A stretch of 64,000 nt of DNA, taken from assembly GCA_022565395.1 (NCBI GenBank), contig JAIUMV010000004.1, positions 124,001-188,000 on the forward strand, written 5' to 3'. The translations under genes and the position numbers were made by a program. The notes beneath the pieces were generated by a model. That model was not told where the DNA came from. It searched no databases and saw only the letters and a program-made list of their open reading frames with translations. Positions 51,743 through 59,267 of the stretch are shown piece after piece (the first letter of the stretch is position 1; every line of letters begins with the position of its first letter). The stretch comes from Marinobacter sp. Lineage in GTDB: Bacteria; Pseudomonadota; Gammaproteobacteria; Pseudomonadales; Oleiphilaceae.

Positions 51743-52528
51743 ATGAATAACCGTGGCTTGGTTCATCTGGGGTTATGTTTGTGCATGGGTTTGGTGCTTG
51801 TTTGGGGCGCCACGGCCCAGGCCGAAGATGTGCTGTTGGTCACAGGTAATAATTATCCTCCGTTTGCGGATGAGAGCCTGCCCGAAGCGGGCGTGCTGAC
51901 GGCGCTGGTACGTGCCGTGTTTGAGCGCATGGGGTACCAGGCCCATATGAAACATATGCCCTGGAATCGCGCCCAGAAAATGGTTCTTGACCACGATGCG
52001 CTGGGCACCTTTCCCTATGTCCGCGATGCTGAGCGTGAACAGCGGTTCCTCTTCTCTGAACCGCTGTATATAGATACGGAGGTCTATTTTGTCCGCGCCG
52101 ACGCCGCTATCCAGTTTCAGCGCCCTGCCGACCTGCGAGGGCTGAAACTCTGCCGGCCCGTTGGCTACAGCGTGGCCTCTTTGCAGCCGGTGCTGGAAAA
52201 CAATCTGGTGGATATGTGGACAACTCAGGATCTTGAAACCTGCTTCCGTCTGTTGGAATTTGGCCGTATTCAGCTGGTGCCCATTGGCCGGAGTGTAGGG
52301 CGGGCGCAGGTGGCAGAGCAGTTTGGTGACCCTGATTACTTCCCGACCCTGGACCCCCCGATCAGCCATAACGGGTTGCACCTGATGATTGCCAAGGACT
52401 ATCCTGGCGCGGAAGCGTTGATTCGGGCTTTTAACCAACAGCTCCGTGACATGGAGGCGGACGGCACCAAGGCCGCGCTGTTTGAGCGTCACCACCACCC
52501 GCTGTCCAGCTCAGCAGAGGGTCAGTAA
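51743..52528 (+). CDS. Periplasmic substrate-binding protein, family 3
   Basis: A 261-residue protein with signal peptide (LGLCLCMGLVLVWGATAQA) and a family-3 bacterial solute-binding fold: VTGNNYPPFADESLPEAGVLTALVRAVFERMGYQ, then FSEPLYIDTEVYFVR. No permease or ATPase is adjacent, so it may be an orphan receptor or feed a distant importer. It lacks a good ribosome binding site (GGCGCG only). The 180-base gap upstream shows no clear riboswitch or promoter. It overlaps the convergent anti-sigma gene by 7 bases. Confidence 0.85.
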   Translation: MNNRGLVHLGLCLCMGLVLVWGATAQAEDVLLVTGNNYPPFADESLPEAGVLTALVRAVFERMGYQAHMKHMPWNRAQKMVLDHDALGTFPYVRDAEREQRFLFSEPLYIDTEVYFVRADAAIQFQRPADLRGLKLCRPVGYSVASLQPVLENNLVDMWTTQDLETCFRLLEFGRIQLVPIGRSVGRAQVAEQFGDPDYFPTLDPPISHNGLHLMIAKDYPGAEALIRAFNQQLRDMEADGTKAALFERHHHPLSSSAEGQ

Positions 52529-52782
52529 TCGCCCTGATTTGATCCGATGCCCTGAGTCAGAGCGCGGTGGATTTCTTCGTCCAGTCGCGCAATATAGTCC
52601 GCGGGCGCTTGCTGACTTGAGTGGGCGGCCATTAGCACGGTGCTTTGTTTCAGTTGGCCAATGAAGGTCCGGCAATGTCTGCACATCATCAGGTGCATAC
52701 GCACTGACAGCTTCCCGCCAGTGCCTAGCTCGCCGTCTATGTAGTCGCTGGCGATAACCGCCAGGTCCTTGCACATCAGCAT
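52522..52782 (-). CDS. Anti-sigma factor, zinc-finger type
   Basis: An 86-residue cytoplasmic protein of the zf-HC2 / ZAS type: MLMCKDLAVIASDYIDGELGTGG...RMHLMMCRHCRTFI contains the H-x3-C-x2-C zinc motif. No membrane segment follows, so it is a soluble anti-sigma factor likely to sense redox state through the zinc site. Its start overlaps the end of the sigma-factor gene, coupling the two. Confidence 0.85.
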   Translation of the reverse strand: MLMCKDLAVIASDYIDGELGTGGKLSVRMHLMMCRHCRTFIGQLKQSTVLMAAHSSQQAPADYIARLDEEIHRALTQGIGSNQGDY

Positions 52783-53396
52783 TCGCCTGTCTCCTGAAAG
52801 CCCTCAACCATCAAGAAAATACGCTGGCGCGCGCGGTGCAGCAAGACACGGAGGTTGGCGGCGCTGACATCCAGCAGGTTACAGACATCCTCTGCCCGGT
52901 GCTGATGAGCTTCATACAGCATCAATGCTGAGCGCTGGTGTTCTGGCAACTGCCCCAGGTGCTTGTCCAGGCAGTCACTTAGTACGTTGTTTTCCAACAG
53001 CGCCTGGGCAGAGTCGCTGGACCTGGCGCTGGGTGGTACTGACCAGCGGCGATTGTCACCAAAGCGTTCAGCCAGCGCTGGGTCCAGAGGGTCATCCGTA
53101 TCCAGTGCCACTTCACGGTGCCGGTCACGAATGCGATTCTTGGCGCGATTGGCCACGATCTGATGCAACCAGGTTTTCAGGCTGGCACGGCCCTCAAAAG
53201 TCTGAATGGCGCTGATCACCGTAAGCCAGGTGTCCTGTACCATGTCTTCAGCGCTGGCCGGGTCCAGGTAGAACCGGGCAACAGCCAACATGCCTGGCGT
53301 GTAAAGCCTGACGGCTTCACGATAGGCTGCCGCATCCCCCTGCTGCAGGCGGCTGACCAAGTCATCTTCAGGGGCGTCCAGCGTATCTGGCCTCAT
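52776..53396 (-). CDS. ECF-family RNA polymerase sigma factor
   Basis: A 206-residue sigma-70 family ECF factor. Region 2: PASAEDMVQDTWLTVISAIQTFEGRASLKTWLHQIVANRAKNRIRDRHRE. Region 4: LDKHLGQLPEHQRSALMLYEAHQHRAEDVCNLLDVSAANLRVLLHRARQRI. Cotranscribed with the anti-sigma factor at 52522. It is divergent from the TVP38-oxidoreductase fusion gene, a candidate target; two TGTAAC elements occur in the shared gap. Confidence 0.92.
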   Translation of the reverse strand: MRPDTLDAPEDDLVSRLQQGDAAAYREAVRLYTPGMLAVARFYLDPASAEDMVQDTWLTVISAIQTFEGRASLKTWLHQIVANRAKNRIRDRHREVALDTDDPLDPALAERFGDNRRWSVPPSARSSDSAQALLENNVLSDCLDKHLGQLPEHQRSALMLYEAHQHRAEDVCNLLDVSAANLRVLLHRARQRIFLMVEGFQETGEC

Positions 53397-53547: not shown

Positions 53548-55743
53548 ATGAATAAGAAAAAACTCGTGATTGCCGGCGTTATCCTGGCCGTTCTGGCCCT
53601 GGTGGTCGCCTTTGACGGCCACACCCTGCTCACCCTGGATAACCTGCAACAACATCAGGTCAGCCTGAGCCAATGGATTGGTGACAACCTGCTGGTTGCT
53701 TTGCTGGGCTTTATTGCTATTTACGTTGTGGTCACCGCTCTGTCCCTGCCGGGTGCCGCCATCATGACCCTGGCGGGCGGGGCTTTCTTTGGCAACCTGT
53801 ACGGGTTGCTGGCGGCGTCCATCGCATCCACCGTCGGTGCAACGCTGGCTTTTCTGGCGGCCCGCTTTCTGTTCCGTGACAGCCTGCGCGCCCGCTACAA
53901 AGACACTGTTGCCCGCATGGACAAGGGTATCGAGAAGGACGGCGCCTTCTATCTGGCGACTTTGCGCCTGGTGCCCCTGTTTCCTTTCTTTATGATCAAC
54001 CTGGCCATGGGGCTGACGGGCATGAAGGTGCGCACCTATATGCTGGTGAGCTGGCTGGCCATGCTGCCCGGTACCTTTGTTTTTGTAAACGCGGGTACCC
54101 AGCTGGCCCGTATCGAGTCCATGGGGGATATTGTTTCCGCCAATCTGCTGTTGGCTTTTGTGCTGCTGGGACTGTTCCCGTTGATTGCCAAGTTCGTTAT
54201 TGGCGTGATCCAGCGCCGCCGGGCCTATCGTGGTTTTACCAAGCCTGACCGTTTCGATTACAACCTGCTGGTGATCGGCGGCGGCGCGGCAGGCCTGGTG
54301 TCGGCTTACATTGCAGCGGCGGTGAAAGCCAAGGTAGCGCTGATTGAAAAGCACAAGATGGGGGGCGACTGCCTGAATACCGGCTGCGTGCCGTCCAAGG
54401 CCCTGATCCAGAGCGCCAAGGTGGCGGACAGCATGCGCCACGCTGACCGCTATGGCCTGGAGAGTGTGCCGGTGAAGCCGTCCATGCGTACGCTGATGAA
54501 CCGGGTGCACAAGATCATTGCCGAGGTGGAACCCCATGACTCTCCCGAGCGCTATCAAAAACTGGGGGTGGACTGCATCTCTGGTGAGGCCCGCTTCGTA
54601 TCCCCCTGGGAACTGGAGGTGCAGCACAGCGATGGGCGCACGGAGCGCCTGACCGCCCGCAGCATCATTATTGCCAGTGGTGGCCGCCCGGCCGTACCGC
54701 CTATTCCCGGTTGGGCGGCGATGCAGCCCCTGACCTCAGACACCCTCTGGCGTCTGGAGCATGAGCCCAAACGGCTGCTGGTATTGGGCGGCGGGCCTAT
54801 CGGCTGCGAGCTGAGCCAGGCCTTTGCACGCCTGGGAGTTGAAGTGACGCAGGTAGAGCGGGGCGAGCGCCTGTTGCCCCGTGAGGATGCGGATGTGTCA
54901 GAAGCGGTACTGCGACAGTTCCGTAAAGATGGCATCCACGTGCTGCTGGATCATCGGGCGATGGAATTTACCCGGGACGGCGAGGAAAAAGTGGCTTGGT
55001 GTGAACATAAGGGCCAGCGGGTGCGGATCCCCTTTGATGATGTGCTGGTGGCGGTGGGCCGCAGTGCCAATACTGACACCCTGAATCTGGCGGCCCTGAA
55101 CCTGCAGCCAGAACGTAACGGCACCGTGCCGGTGGATGAGTACCTGAGTGTGGGCGGCTTCCCCAATATCTATGCCTGCGGGGATGTGGCCGGACCTTAC
55201 CAGTTCACCCACGCCGCCGCGCATCAGGCCTGGTATGCCGCCGTGAATGGTCTGTTTGGCAGTTTCAAGCGGTTCCGGGTGGACTATCGGGTTATGCCCT
55301 GGGTCACATTCACGTCCCCGGAAGTAGCCCGGGTGGGCCTGAGTGAGGCGGAAGCCGAGGCGCAGGGAGTGGCTGTAGCGGTAACCCGTTATGACCTGGG
55401 GGATTTGGACCGGGCTATCGCTGAGAGTCGGGCCGGAGGCTTTATCAAGGTGCTGACGGCGCCGGGCAAGGACAAGATACTCGGTGCTACGGTGGTGGGC
55501 CCTCAGGCCGGTGAAATCCTGGCAGAGTTCACCCTGGCCATGAAGCATGGGCTGGGCCTGAACAAGATTCTGGGCACCATTCACCCCTACCCGACCTGGA
55601 ACGAGGCAGCTAAGTACGCGGCGGGGGAATGGAAACGGGCCAACGCACCGCAGGGTATTTTGCGGTTACTGGAAAAGCTGCACCGTATTCGCCGGGGGCG
55701 AGGGGGTGCTGGCGGAGGTGTTGCGGTGGCGAAAAATCGCTAG
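53548..55743 (+). CDS. TVP38/TMEM64 membrane domain fused to FAD disulfide oxidoreductase
   Basis: A 731-residue fusion; start after GCAGGAGCGCTTC. Residues 1-230: a TVP38/TMEM64 (SNARE-associated, DedA-like) membrane domain with IYVVVTALSLPGAAIMTLAGGAFFGNLYG. Residues about 235-720: a class I pyridine-nucleotide disulfide oxidoreductase with FAD motif VIGGGAAGLVSAYIAA, redox-active GGDCLNTGCVPSK, NAD(P)H motif LVLGGGPIGCELSQAF and the C-terminal dimer region with His-x-x-x-x-Glu (HPYPTWNE). It lacks the N-terminal and C-terminal Cys pairs of mercuric reductase. The substrate is unknown; the joint with a membrane domain suggests electron transfer to or from the membrane. Confidence 0.92.
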   Translation: MNKKKLVIAGVILAVLALVVAFDGHTLLTLDNLQQHQVSLSQWIGDNLLVALLGFIAIYVVVTALSLPGAAIMTLAGGAFFGNLYGLLAASIASTVGATLAFLAARFLFRDSLRARYKDTVARMDKGIEKDGAFYLATLRLVPLFPFFMINLAMGLTGMKVRTYMLVSWLAMLPGTFVFVNAGTQLARIESMGDIVSANLLLAFVLLGLFPLIAKFVIGVIQRRRAYRGFTKPDRFDYNLLVIGGGAAGLVSAYIAAAVKAKVALIEKHKMGGDCLNTGCVPSKALIQSAKVADSMRHADRYGLESVPVKPSMRTLMNRVHKIIAEVEPHDSPERYQKLGVDCISGEARFVSPWELEVQHSDGRTERLTARSIIIASGGRPAVPPIPGWAAMQPLTSDTLWRLEHEPKRLLVLGGGPIGCELSQAFARLGVEVTQVERGERLLPREDADVSEAVLRQFRKDGIHVLLDHRAMEFTRDGEEKVAWCEHKGQRVRIPFDDVLVAVGRSANTDTLNLAALNLQPERNGTVPVDEYLSVGGFPNIYACGDVAGPYQFTHAAAHQAWYAAVNGLFGSFKRFRVDYRVMPWVTFTSPEVARVGLSEAEAEAQGVAVAVTRYDLGDLDRAIAESRAGGFIKVLTAPGKDKILGATVVGPQAGEILAEFTLAMKHGLGLNKILGTIHPYPTWNEAAKYAAGEWKRANAPQGILRLLEKLHRIRRGRGGAGGGVAVAKNR

Positions 55744-55927: not shown

Positions 55928-56893
55928 ATGGCTGTAACCGAAACCCCCACAAAACGCCGGATACCCCTGGTGGATGTTGTGGCACCACGCCATCAGGACA
56001 GCTGGACCCATACCCGGGCCGGCGAGCCTCGTGGCTATATCGACGGTGACCAGCTCAAAGAGCTGTGGATTCACACCGGTACCGCCTGCAACCTGGCCTG
56101 CCCCTTCTGCCTGGAGGGCTCCAAGCCCGGCGACGGCCGTATTCCCGGTATGAAGCTGGCGGATGTGAAGCCTTTTATTCATGAAGCGATGGACATGGGG
56201 GTGGAGCAGTTTTCCTTCACCGGCGGTGAGCCCTTTGTGATCCGCGACTTTATCAACATCCTCGATTACGCCAGCCAGCACCGTCCCTGCTTCGTGCTGA
56301 CCAACGGCACCGAGCCTTTACTGAAACGCACCCACCAGCTGCTGCCCTTGAAAGGCAACCCGTACCCGATCCGCTTCCGGGTCAGCCTGGACTTTCCGGA
56401 CCCTGTCCGTCATGACAAAGATCGTGGCGAGGGCAGTTTTGCCGAAGCCCTGCAGGGCATCAAATGGCTTCATGATCATGGCTTCACGGTCACCATCGCT
56501 CGCCAAATGAGCCCGGGTGAGGATGCTGATGCCGTGCTGGCCGCCTTTCAGGCCATTTTCCGGGCGGAAGGCATTCCCGAGGATCTCGCCTTCACCGCCT
56601 TCCCGGACTTTGGAATCCCCGGCAGTGAAGACGGCAGCCCGGAAATCACCGAAACCTGTATGGAGAAATACCCCACCCGTGAGAGCCGCGCCCACTTCAT
56701 GTGCACCTCAACGCGCATGCTGGTCAAGAAGGGTGAGCAAGTGCGGGTCTACGCCTGCACCCTGGTGGATGATGACCCCGACTACGATCTGGGCGCCACC
56801 CTGCGGGAGAGTTTCGATACCCGCATCATGCTGCGTCATCACCGCTGTTTCAGTTGCTATAAGTTCGGCGCCAGTTGCAGCGCGCCGGTCTAA
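55928..56893 (+). CDS. Radical SAM protein with C-terminal Cys-rich region
   Basis: A 321-residue radical SAM enzyme. Start ATG 55928 follows GTTGGAGAGACC. The [4Fe-4S] motif is C54-x3-C58-x2-C61 (ACNLACPFC); FSFTGGEPFV is the SAM-contact GGEP. A C-terminal block VYACTLVDDD...RCFSCYKFGASCSAPV has about four Cys in a SPASM/twitch-like arrangement, suggesting an auxiliary cluster. It does not look like ArsS, QueE or MoaA. First gene of a three-gene run with a sodium symporter and a phosphoesterase-like protein. Reaction unknown. Confidence 0.85.
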   Translation: MAVTETPTKRRIPLVDVVAPRHQDSWTHTRAGEPRGYIDGDQLKELWIHTGTACNLACPFCLEGSKPGDGRIPGMKLADVKPFIHEAMDMGVEQFSFTGGEPFVIRDFINILDYASQHRPCFVLTNGTEPLLKRTHQLLPLKGNPYPIRFRVSLDFPDPVRHDKDRGEGSFAEALQGIKWLHDHGFTVTIARQMSPGEDADAVLAAFQAIFRAEGIPEDLAFTAFPDFGIPGSEDGSPEITETCMEKYPTRESRAHFMCTSTRMLVKKGEQVRVYACTLVDDDPDYDLGATLRESFDTRIMLRHHRCFSCYKFGASCSAPV

Positions 56894-56932
56894 ACACGTC
56901 GGGTTGAATCAAGCCTTGGAGACAGGTTCCCT

Positions 56933-58315
56933 ATGATCGAGTTTCACTTACCCAGTCTGGTGGCCATACTGGTGGTTACTGCAGTCGTTAGTGTCGCGCT
57001 CGCGCCCCGGGTGCGCACTGCGGACGGCTTTTATCGTGGCTGGAGCGAAGGCGGCCAGGCACCGGGGGTCTGGACCCTCACCTTCTCCCAGGTAACCACC
57101 TGGATATTTGCCCGTTCACTGTTGAATGCCGGGATACTGGGCTATTTCTTCGGCATTGCCGGTGCCCTGGCATACACGGTTTACTATGGCTCTTTCCTCA
57201 CCGGCTGGTTGATCGTGGATCAGCTGCGCTTCCGCCGTGGCTACCCCAATATCCAGACCTTCTTCGCCCAGCGCTTCGGGCGCCTGGGTGTATCGGCCTA
57301 TAACATCCTTATCTCCCTGCGCTTACTGACAGAGGTCTTTGCCAACCTGCTGGTGGTGGGCATTGTGTTTTCCGCCGCCGGGGTGCTGGCGGAAAACCTT
57401 GCGATTATGGCGGTGGCGGTTATTACCCTGTTTTACTCCATGACCGGTGGTTTGCGAGCCTCCCTGCGTACCGATGTGCTGCAGATGACGCTGCTGACCG
57501 TCCTGATGGTGGTTCTGTTCGGCGTCATGCTGATGCACCCGCTGTTTGAGGTGACGGCCCTGATGACCAGCAGCCCGGACTTACGCGGCCCCGGCTGGGT
57601 GCTGATGATAGTGGCCTTCCTGCAGGTACTCAGCTACCCCCTGCATGACCCGGTGATGATGGATCGCGGCTTTGTCTCTGACCGGGACACCACCCGCCGC
57701 AGTTTTATCCATGCCTTCTGGATATCCGCTCTGCTGATTCTCATGTTTGGACTGATGGGTGTATTTGCTGGCCTGCACCGTGAGGGGGGCAATGATTTGT
57801 TGTTCACCCTACAGCAGCTGTTGGGTGCCCCTGCCATGCTGTTGCTGGCCGCCGCTCTGGTGCTCTCTGCCGCTTCTACCATGGACTCGGTGTTTTCCAG
57901 TGTGTCCAAGCTTACGGTGGTGGATATGGGTGTAGGCGGCGGTACCCTGCACAGTGGCCGCTGGGCCATGATCGGCTTTGCCATTGCCGGGCTGGCACTG
58001 GTTTACTGGGGCACCGATGACCTCTATGCGGCAGTGGCTGTGAGCGGTACGGCCTCCCTGTTCCTGACCCCCATTATCCTGATTTCCATCTTCGCCAACC
58101 GGCAGGTAGCGCGCTGGAGTTTTGTGGTCAATTTTGTCGTAGCCATCGGTGCCGCGGCCTTCTATTTTCTCGAAAACGCCGGCTACCTGAATGTGATGGG
58201 GCCACTGACCGGCCTTGAACATACCTACAGTCACCTGCTGGTGGTCACGCTGGTTGTGCTCACTATTGGCATGGGCGCCTTCCTGCTGGGCATGGGGCCC
58301 CGCGCCGATGACTGA
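56933..58315 (+). CDS. Sodium:solute symporter (SSS family)
   Basis: A 460-residue membrane protein with about 11-13 helices, short for the family. Features: GWSEGGQAPGVWTLTFSQVTTWIFARSLLNAG in helix 1 and SAASTMDSVFSSVSKLTVVD in the region of the Na2 site (S/T in helix 8). It is the middle gene of the radical SAM operon and overlaps the next gene by 8 bases, so it likely imports or exports the substrate or product of that pathway. Confidence 0.9.
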   Translation: MIEFHLPSLVAILVVTAVVSVALAPRVRTADGFYRGWSEGGQAPGVWTLTFSQVTTWIFARSLLNAGILGYFFGIAGALAYTVYYGSFLTGWLIVDQLRFRRGYPNIQTFFAQRFGRLGVSAYNILISLRLLTEVFANLLVVGIVFSAAGVLAENLAIMAVAVITLFYSMTGGLRASLRTDVLQMTLLTVLMVVLFGVMLMHPLFEVTALMTSSPDLRGPGWVLMIVAFLQVLSYPLHDPVMMDRGFVSDRDTTRRSFIHAFWISALLILMFGLMGVFAGLHREGGNDLLFTLQQLLGAPAMLLLAAALVLSAASTMDSVFSSVSKLTVVDMGVGGGTLHSGRWAMIGFAIAGLALVYWGTDDLYAAVAVSGTASLFLTPIILISIFANRQVARWSFVVNFVVAIGAAAFYFLENAGYLNVMGPLTGLEHTYSHLLVVTLVVLTIGMGAFLLGMGPRADD

Positions 58316-59267
58316 TACAGAATCTGCCAGCCCGGGGCGCAGTTGCCCGCTACACTACCGCTACCAGCCTGAACAGTTGGTGGCCGACCCTGAGCTGCTG
58401 ACGGGCCCCGGCTTGCTGGTGGCCGGCGGGCTGTATGGCAATCCCTATGCGCTGGCGAGTCTGGAAGCGCGTTGGCAGCGGGAAAGCGGTTTTGAGCTGC
58501 TGTTTAACGGCGACTTCCACTGGTTTGATGTTGAGCCGGGTTGTTTTGCCGAGATCACTGCCAGGGTGCTGCGCCACCGCGCGCAGTTGGGCAATGTAGA
58601 ACTGGAATTGGTGGACCCGTCACCGGGCGCCGGTTGCGGCTGCGCCTACCCGGAGTCCGTCAGCAGCGGCGTAGTGGAGCGGTCAAATCTGATTATGGCC
58701 CGATTGCAGCAAACCCTGGCGGCCTGCGATCCGGAGCTGGCTCAGGGCCTGCGATCTTTGCCCCGCTGGCGTTGCCTGCAATGGCAGGACCAGCGGGTAC
58801 TGGTACTGCATGGCGACCCGGAGTCCCTGGCGGGCTGGGGGCTGTCCCGGGATGCTCTGGCCGATCCGGCACATCAGGCGCGGCTCAGGCGCTGGTTCCG
58901 GCAAACGGATGCAGACCTGATCCTGTGTACCCATACCTGTGAGCCAGCACTCTGGCAGCAGGTGCTGGACGGCAAGCTGCGCACAGTGGTGAACAACGGC
59001 GCTGCGGGCATGGGTAATTTGATGGCAGACCACCGGGGCCTGGCCACTCGCGTGGCCCTGCAGCCTGCGGAGGACGCCATTATCTCTTTGCCGCTGTCCG
59101 TGGGGGTTGTTGAACTGGTGCCGGTGAGCTTTCCTTTGCCAGCTTGGCTGGACCTGTTCGGAACTTGGTGGCCCGCCGGTAGCCCGGCAGAACTATCCTA
59201 TGCACAGCGTATACAGCAAGGAAGTCCACTGGTAGCCAACAATCTGTTGGTCTCTGCACCGGCATAA
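58308..59267 (+). CDS. Degenerate calcineurin-like phosphoesterase
   Basis: A 319-residue protein coupled to the symporter gene (8-base overlap). It resembles metallophosphoesterases: LLVAGGLYGNPYALASLEARW sits where ISDIHGN normally stands, followed by FNGDFHWFD, LVLHGDPESL, CTHTCEP (GHTH region) and VNNGAAGMGNL. The first motif has lost both the Asp and the His of D-x-H, so the metal site is altered. It may bind a phosphorylated ligand or use a changed metal site. Role in the operon unknown. Confidence 0.7.
   Translation: MTDTESASPGRSCPLHYRYQPEQLVADPELLTGPGLLVAGGLYGNPYALASLEARWQRESGFELLFNGDFHWFDVEPGCFAEITARVLRHRAQLGNVELELVDPSPGAGCGCAYPESVSSGVVERSNLIMARLQQTLAACDPELAQGLRSLPRWRCLQWQDQRVLVLHGDPESLAGWGLSRDALADPAHQARLRRWFRQTDADLILCTHTCEPALWQQVLDGKLRTVVNNGAAGMGNLMADHRGLATRVALQPAEDAIISLPLSVGVVELVPVSFPLPAWLDLFGTWWPAGSPAELSYAQRIQQGSPLVANNLLVSAPA

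Follow-up and report, generated by a model that had tools for sequence, protein, structure and literature searches.

Arsenosugars are major marine organoarsenic compounds, and the known bacterial route to them needs ArsS. This radical S-adenosylmethionine (SAM) enzyme adenosylates arsenic after methylation by ArsM, according to studies that PMC12159101 and PMC8552651 cite. A second described system is the arsinothricin cluster arsQML, which combines the radical SAM enzyme ArsL with a transporter and ArsM (PMC8552651). Here we describe a set of three genes in a 64,000 nt stretch of a Marinobacter sp. genome (contig JAIUMV010000004.1, positions 124,001 to 188,000), referred to below as the window, encoding the radical SAM enzyme P0001, the sodium:solute symporter (SSS) P0002 and the calcineurin-fold protein P0003. 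We consider it reasonably probable that P0001 does the job of ArsS in organisms without ArsS, and that the SSS/P0003 pair supplies or handles an organoarsenical. The computed basis for this proposal is the conserved linkage of the genes, the replacement of ArsS, the partners in common, the homology with matching cysteines and a plasmid on which a P0003 homologue is paired with arsS.

P0001 matches Radical_SAM (PF04055) with 69 bits and has the same CxxxCxxC motif as ArsS (TIGR04167, radical SAM (seleno)protein). Six more cysteines, C244, C259, C277, C307, C310 and C317, are invariant across 57 homologues, which bears out the auxiliary Cys-rich C-terminus that an earlier reading of the letters alone (the sequence-only reading) had noticed. 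Both proteins are about 320 aa long with an N-terminal radical SAM core. The profile alignment of the P0001 family to ArsS covers 271 columns (34-316 to 16-318, E 3.7e-13) and is thereby near full length, with about 21% identity and five C-terminal cysteines in register, C244 being one further invariant cysteine of P0001; for PqqE and for a small set that includes MoaA the alignment is confined to the core (130-138 columns). On the strength of this alignment P0001 is a distant homologue of ArsS over nearly its full length, with C-terminal cysteines matching.

The best curated match of P0001 is the Rv1681 family (NF049973, MoeX) with 106 bits against a cut-off of 380, aligned over residues 44-218 only, and the top structural matches are SkfB, BlsE and SuiB. 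Judged by its scores, which lie below the cut-offs of both ArsS and Rv1681, P0001 belongs to no curated family, in keeping with the sequence-only reading. These matches, along with a SPASM/twitch-like pattern of the C-terminal cysteines, could point to an ordinary SPASM/twitch-type maturase of a peptide or cofactor, of the Rv1681 kind, with incidental neighbours. We regard this as quite improbable, as the score falls far short of that family's cut-off, a conserved precursor peptide was not noticed (though no specific search for one was made), and the genes found alongside encode glycosyltransferases, ArsM, MTAP and transporters. A peptide maturase role was rejected, as nothing beyond the core match speaks in its favour. 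An identity with ArsL was likewise rejected: the partners in arsQML are different, and no ArsL family is found among the NCBIfam matches listed (best 25 of 50).

To compare the occurrence of the two enzymes we used 321 gammaproteobacterial genomes, drawn evenly, with ArsS called at E 1e-30 and the glycosyltransferase family TIGR04283 at E 1e-40. TIGR04283 tracks ArsS, the two being found in 169 and 158 genomes respectively and together in 154. Radical SAM proteins of the P0001 family occur in 6 of the 321 genomes, none of which has ArsS (p = 0.03, with few positives), and five of these six carriers are among the 15 genomes that have TIGR04283 and lack ArsS (p = 2e-5 among ArsS-negatives). Nor was ArsS found above the cut-off in any of 35 genomes carrying the P0001 family, which were chosen for the radical SAM gene and are not independent of kinship. 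The occurrence of the two families is hence mutually exclusive in the samples, while their genomic partners are the same; ArsS loci have TIGR04283, TIGR04282 and a VTT/Mer gene, a fusion of a VTT/TVP38 membrane domain with a Mer-like flavoprotein, and one has a DUF547 gene. We conclude that the P0001 family fills the ArsS position in genomes without ArsS.

The same partners were found around the wider family. The best 80 loci from a search of GTDB genomes place it in gamma-, beta- and alphaproteobacteria, Kiritimatiellota, Planctomycetota, Omnitrophota and others. We compared 35 SSS-bearing loci (window included, two exact duplicates removed) with 56 other loci of the family; genes were called from open reading frames and similarity, and partner families were assigned by NCBIfam on representatives and by similarity to those for the remainder. 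In 43 of these 56 other loci, arsM, TIGR04282, TIGR04283 or a methylthioadenosine (MTA) phosphorylase gene (MTAP) lies within about 7 kb (arsM in 22, TIGR04282 in 30, TIGR04283 in 31, both glycosyltransferases in 28, VTT/Mer in 22), and locus L032 has almost all of these genes side by side, as TIGR04282-arsM-rSAM-arsC-MTAP-TIGR04283, with rSAM for the radical SAM gene. The statement in the sequence-only reading that no pathway with this set is known proved incomplete or wrong, as the relatives sit in ArsM/TIGR04282/TIGR04283/MTAP clusters of an arsenosugar-type pathway.

Phylogenetically, the Marinobacter clade falls inside this ArsM/glycosyltransferase-linked family, and within the same supported clade (100/100) either arsM (Pseudohongiella type) or the two glycosyltransferases (Halomonadaceae) stand beside the radical SAM gene. 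Two of the five Pseudohongiella-type rows close to the Marinobacter clade have arsM adjacent, and in Marinobacter zhejiangensis the locus with the complete set also contains arsM. The linkage that characterises ArsS (TIGR04283/TIGR04282, VTT/Mer, MTAP, arsM) is thus seen for the P0001 family; the window genome has the glycosyltransferase pair away from P0001, with TIGR04283 (277 bits) and an adjacent TIGR04282-like gene on a different contig. A 33-36% identical radical SAM subfamily occurs in same-family genomes (L034-L038), mostly beside a PfkB kinase and a major facilitator superfamily carrier and not beside SSS/P0003; one of these genomes has arsM elsewhere.

Radical SAM, SSS and P0003 genes occur together in 34 loci, window included, nearly all from Marinobacteraceae. 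Of the 35 SSS-bearing loci 34 have P0003 and 31 have the VTT/Mer fusion, so linkage beyond one genome, which the sequence-only reading had set as its test, was found and usually extends to the fusion gene. The order in Marinobacteraceae is sigma/anti-sigma (divergent), fusion, radical SAM, SSS, P0003. Directly downstream of the set, Marinobacter relatives usually have ectA, ectB and ask; these are replaced in the window, hence the set holds together across a synteny break. As SSS carriers often move compatible solutes, it might be argued from these neighbours that the SSS/P0003 pair handles an osmolyte (ectoine) and adjoins the radical SAM gene through chance synteny in Marinobacter. This seems to us very improbable, since the set in the window is intact without adjoining ectoine genes, a P0003 homologue lies behind arsS on a Burkholderia glumae plasmid, and SSS and P0003 are found near VTT/Mer in locus L142. 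An ectoine link was rejected as a general feature. In the window, the operon downstream of P0003 encodes an ATP-binding cassette (ABC) importer with a CysPTWA-type look and a CysA-type C-terminal domain. This fits the sulfate importer read from the sequence, but it is a local neighbour that is not kept beside the set in Marinobacter relatives, and it was rejected as a part of the system.

P0002 itself is below the cut-off of Pfam SSF (PF00474; 16.1 bits, gathering score 22.8), whereas three homologues pass with 28.9-38 bits; its similarity to SGLT1 is remote. It is 65-66% identical to the SSS beside a P0003 homologue in loci L145 and L146. Given that P0002 is only about 35% identical to the SSS of Marinobacteraceae relatives (L022-L031), to whose orthologues P0001 is 70-82% identical (about 80%), it appears that the transporter gene at this position in the window was exchanged for a different type of P0003-linked SSS. 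Plasmid pHP-187 of Marinobacter adhaerens HP15 (L205 9001-9961) has a frameshifted, unannotated copy of the radical SAM gene followed by SSS, without P0003, and a DUF547 gene is found immediately upstream of the radical SAM gene in some Marinobacteraceae (L025, L030/L067, L040) and of ArsS in L183.

The AlphaFold model of P0003 (pLDDT 88) has SapH and related metallophosphoesterases as its nearest solved folds (Foldseek). It shares fold (E 6.8e-11, TM 0.60 by query length) and motif order with the SapH-type Ap4A hydrolase and relatives (3qfm, 1nnw), and the relatives L147 and P0005 pass the Pfam cut-off for calcineurin-like metallophosphoesterases; a sequence search of the PDB with the P0003 profile gave nothing but one chance nanobody match. 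We assigned the motifs from sequence and strand order. Compared with the full metal-ligand set (DxH, GDxxD, GNH, H, GHxH), P0003 retains D69, N96, H168 and H209, whereas D-x-H of motif I has become G-x-Y, C211 stands where GHxH has its last His, and there is an extra invariant CGC pair. The cysteines C13, C110, C112 and C211 are invariant even among distant members. The degenerate phosphoesterase of the sequence-only reading is therefore confirmed as a calcineurin-type fold with degraded metal ligands.

Two plasmids support a link between P0003 and the pathway. On the B. glumae plasmid (L207) the P0003 homologue lies 12 nt behind an annotated arsS (450 bits against TIGR04167), in a cluster that also has MTAP, TIGR04283 and ECF sigma/zf-HC2. 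A Roseomonas plasmid (L206) combines a P0001-family radical SAM gene with a phosphonate-type ABC importer, the phosphoesterase P0005, TIGR04282 and Mer/VTT. P0005 is a distant homologue of P0003 (E 1.9e-18) with the motifs GGPYSN, GNCE and CGCG; it has the motif I loss and the CGC of P0003, lacks C13 and differs in the THTC region. As both SSS with P0003 and a phosphonate-type ABC importer with P0005 occur, the pairing of an importer with a CGC phosphoesterase recurs, and the importers are of two kinds at least. The Roseomonas region (L206 4013-14888) also holds a second, TrsS-like radical SAM gene, which has a 52% identical counterpart close to arsS in B. glumae L207, and DUF547 proteins, a chalcone-isomerase-like protein and a DoxX-type protein, which are further candidate pathway members.

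A number of results weigh against P0001 acting as an ArsS, or against arsenic as its substrate. P0001 scores 36.4 bits against the ArsS model TIGR04167, with a cut-off of 300, and gives no match to DUF3641 (PF12345), for which a true ArsS scores 192 bits. The MoaA-containing set matches the radical SAM core of the P0001 family better than ArsS does, and the C-terminal part alone gives a marginal score of 25 against ArsS, where the highest-scoring of 100 shuffles reached 20.6. With the isolated C-terminal signal weak and the core no nearer to ArsS than to MoaA, the functional argument rests on position and partners, and the homology serves as support. The sequence-only reading that P0001 does not look like ArsS is hence correct at family level, but misses a near-full-length distant homologue with matching cysteines that fills the ArsS slot. 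A clear arsM relative was found in just 11 of the 35 carrier genomes and in none of the Marinobacter-type carriers among them, one of which has an ArsM-like gene of 179 bits, below the cut-off; no arsM was found in the window genome, where the best match has 62 bits and covers the SAM-binding core only. It should be noted that the 'arsenosugar' names of TIGR04282 and TIGR04283 are NCBI names resting on association, not tests. P0003 was found in 8 of the 321 genomes, four with ArsS, two with a P0001-family radical SAM protein and two with neither, and this association with the pathway is not significant (6/8, p = 0.28); we take the genome-wide co-occurrence as suggestive, and the gene content of the two plasmids as the stronger indication.

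Further, ArsS passes the TIGR04167 cut-off in 155 of the 321 genomes, about half, which is more than expected of a purely arsenic pathway. ArsS appears commoner than the frequency of arsM would lead one to expect, which leaves some room for a non-arsenical substrate: the radical SAM enzyme could carry out adenosyl-type chemistry in the TIGR04282/TIGR04283 pathway on a phosphorus, selenium or sulfur compound imported by the transporter. That ArsS-type genes are very common fits this explanation, as do the many genomes that lack arsM and retain the radical SAM gene with both glycosyltransferases, and the Roseomonas phosphonate-type importer, which weakly resembles a putative selenate binding protein. 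We nevertheless judge it unlikely, given the arsM genes near 22 of the 56 loci, with arsC and an MTAP-like gene also adjacent in L032, and given that the homologue that occupies this slot elsewhere, ArsS, is reported as arsenic-active (references in PMC12159101). Among the sulfur, arsenic, selenium or phosphorylated compounds that the sequence-only reading had offered, we judge arsenic to be the right one, as the probable substrate.

The features of the locus are collected in the table. The genes of the set are tightly arranged, as first read, with 39 nt between P0001 and P0002, and an ATG of P0003 that overlaps the stop of P0002 (ATGACTGA); because of this overlap P0002 and P0003 are probably translationally coupled. 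The preceding membrane-oxidoreductase fusion P0004 is also as described, and is separated from P0001 by 184 nt containing a strong hairpin (z -9.2), hence transcription from P0004 into P0001 may be interrupted. The hairpin occurs once in the window, no match to its middle part was found in the related loci compared, and it is perhaps a terminator or a repeat element. Rfam gave no match around the operon.

Features of the P0001-P0003 locus, in positions of the window
Feature	Position	Strand	Remark
zf-HC2 anti-sigma factor	52522..52782	-	conserved neighbour
ECF sigma factor	52776..53396	-	divergent, conserved neighbour
P0004, TVP38/VTT + Mer-like pyridine-nucleotide-disulfide oxidoreductase fusion	53548..55743	+	conserved neighbour upstream of P0001
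Strong hairpin between P0004 and P0001	55776..55882	.	may separate transcripts
P0001, radical SAM enzyme, 321 aa	55928..56893	+	ArsS-like but outside TIGR04167
CxxxCxxC motif for radical SAM [4Fe-4S] cluster (C54, C58, C61)	56087..56110	+	invariant in 57 homologues
C-terminal cysteines C259, C277, C307, C310, C317	56702..56878	+	aligned with ArsS C-terminal cysteines; weak if C-terminal part tested alone
P0002, SSS-type sodium:solute symporter, 460 aa	56933..58315	+	
P0003, calcineurin-fold protein, 319 aa	58308..59267	+	degenerate metal site; invariant C13/C110/C112/C211
GGLYGN in place of D-x-H-G-N metal motif	58425..58442	+	both ligands lost
CGC motif, C110/C112	58635..58643	+	kept also in Roseomonas homologue P0005
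THTC in place of GHxH	58929..58940	+	last His replaced by Cys211

Assuming that P0001 works as an ArsS, it would cleave SAM to a 5'-deoxyadenosyl radical and join the 5'-deoxyadenosyl group to a trivalent dimethylated arsenical, with arsenic as the atom attacked, to give 5'-deoxy-5'-arsino-adenosine. The MTA-phosphorylase-like enzyme and the TIGR04282/TIGR04283 glycosyltransferases would then convert this product to an arsenosugar. Because no arsM was found in the window genome, the pathway would be completed most simply by taking up a methylated arsenical, most likely inward through the SSS symporter P0002, and the TVP38/Mer fusion P0004 could supply a reducing step to As(III). P0003, which has lost ligands of one metal site and gained invariant cysteines, may handle or process the nucleoside product.

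These findings suggest that two distinct radical enzymes serve the ArsS-type pathway, and that it has an accessory module. No description of the SSS/P0003 module, and no account of arsenosugar, radical SAM and glycosyltransferase together, was found in the literature searched. We further speculate, tentatively and with the whole of it being rather doubtful, that two radical SAM families serve one arsenosugar-type pathway, and that marine bacteria without arsM use imported methylated arsenicals, taken up by an SSS or a phosphonate-type ABC importer that is paired with a new class of Cys-site enzymes of phosphoesterase fold binding or cutting an organoarsenic nucleoside. The importer and the Cys-bearing phosphoesterase offer a testable handle on the steps of the pathway, and with arsM absent from many carriers, whether the 'arsenosugar' genes act on arsenic becomes directly testable. 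If the proposal is true, searches based on arsS overlook the pathway in Marinobacter, Halomonas relatives, Pseudohongiella, Oceanospirillaceae, nitrifiers and others.

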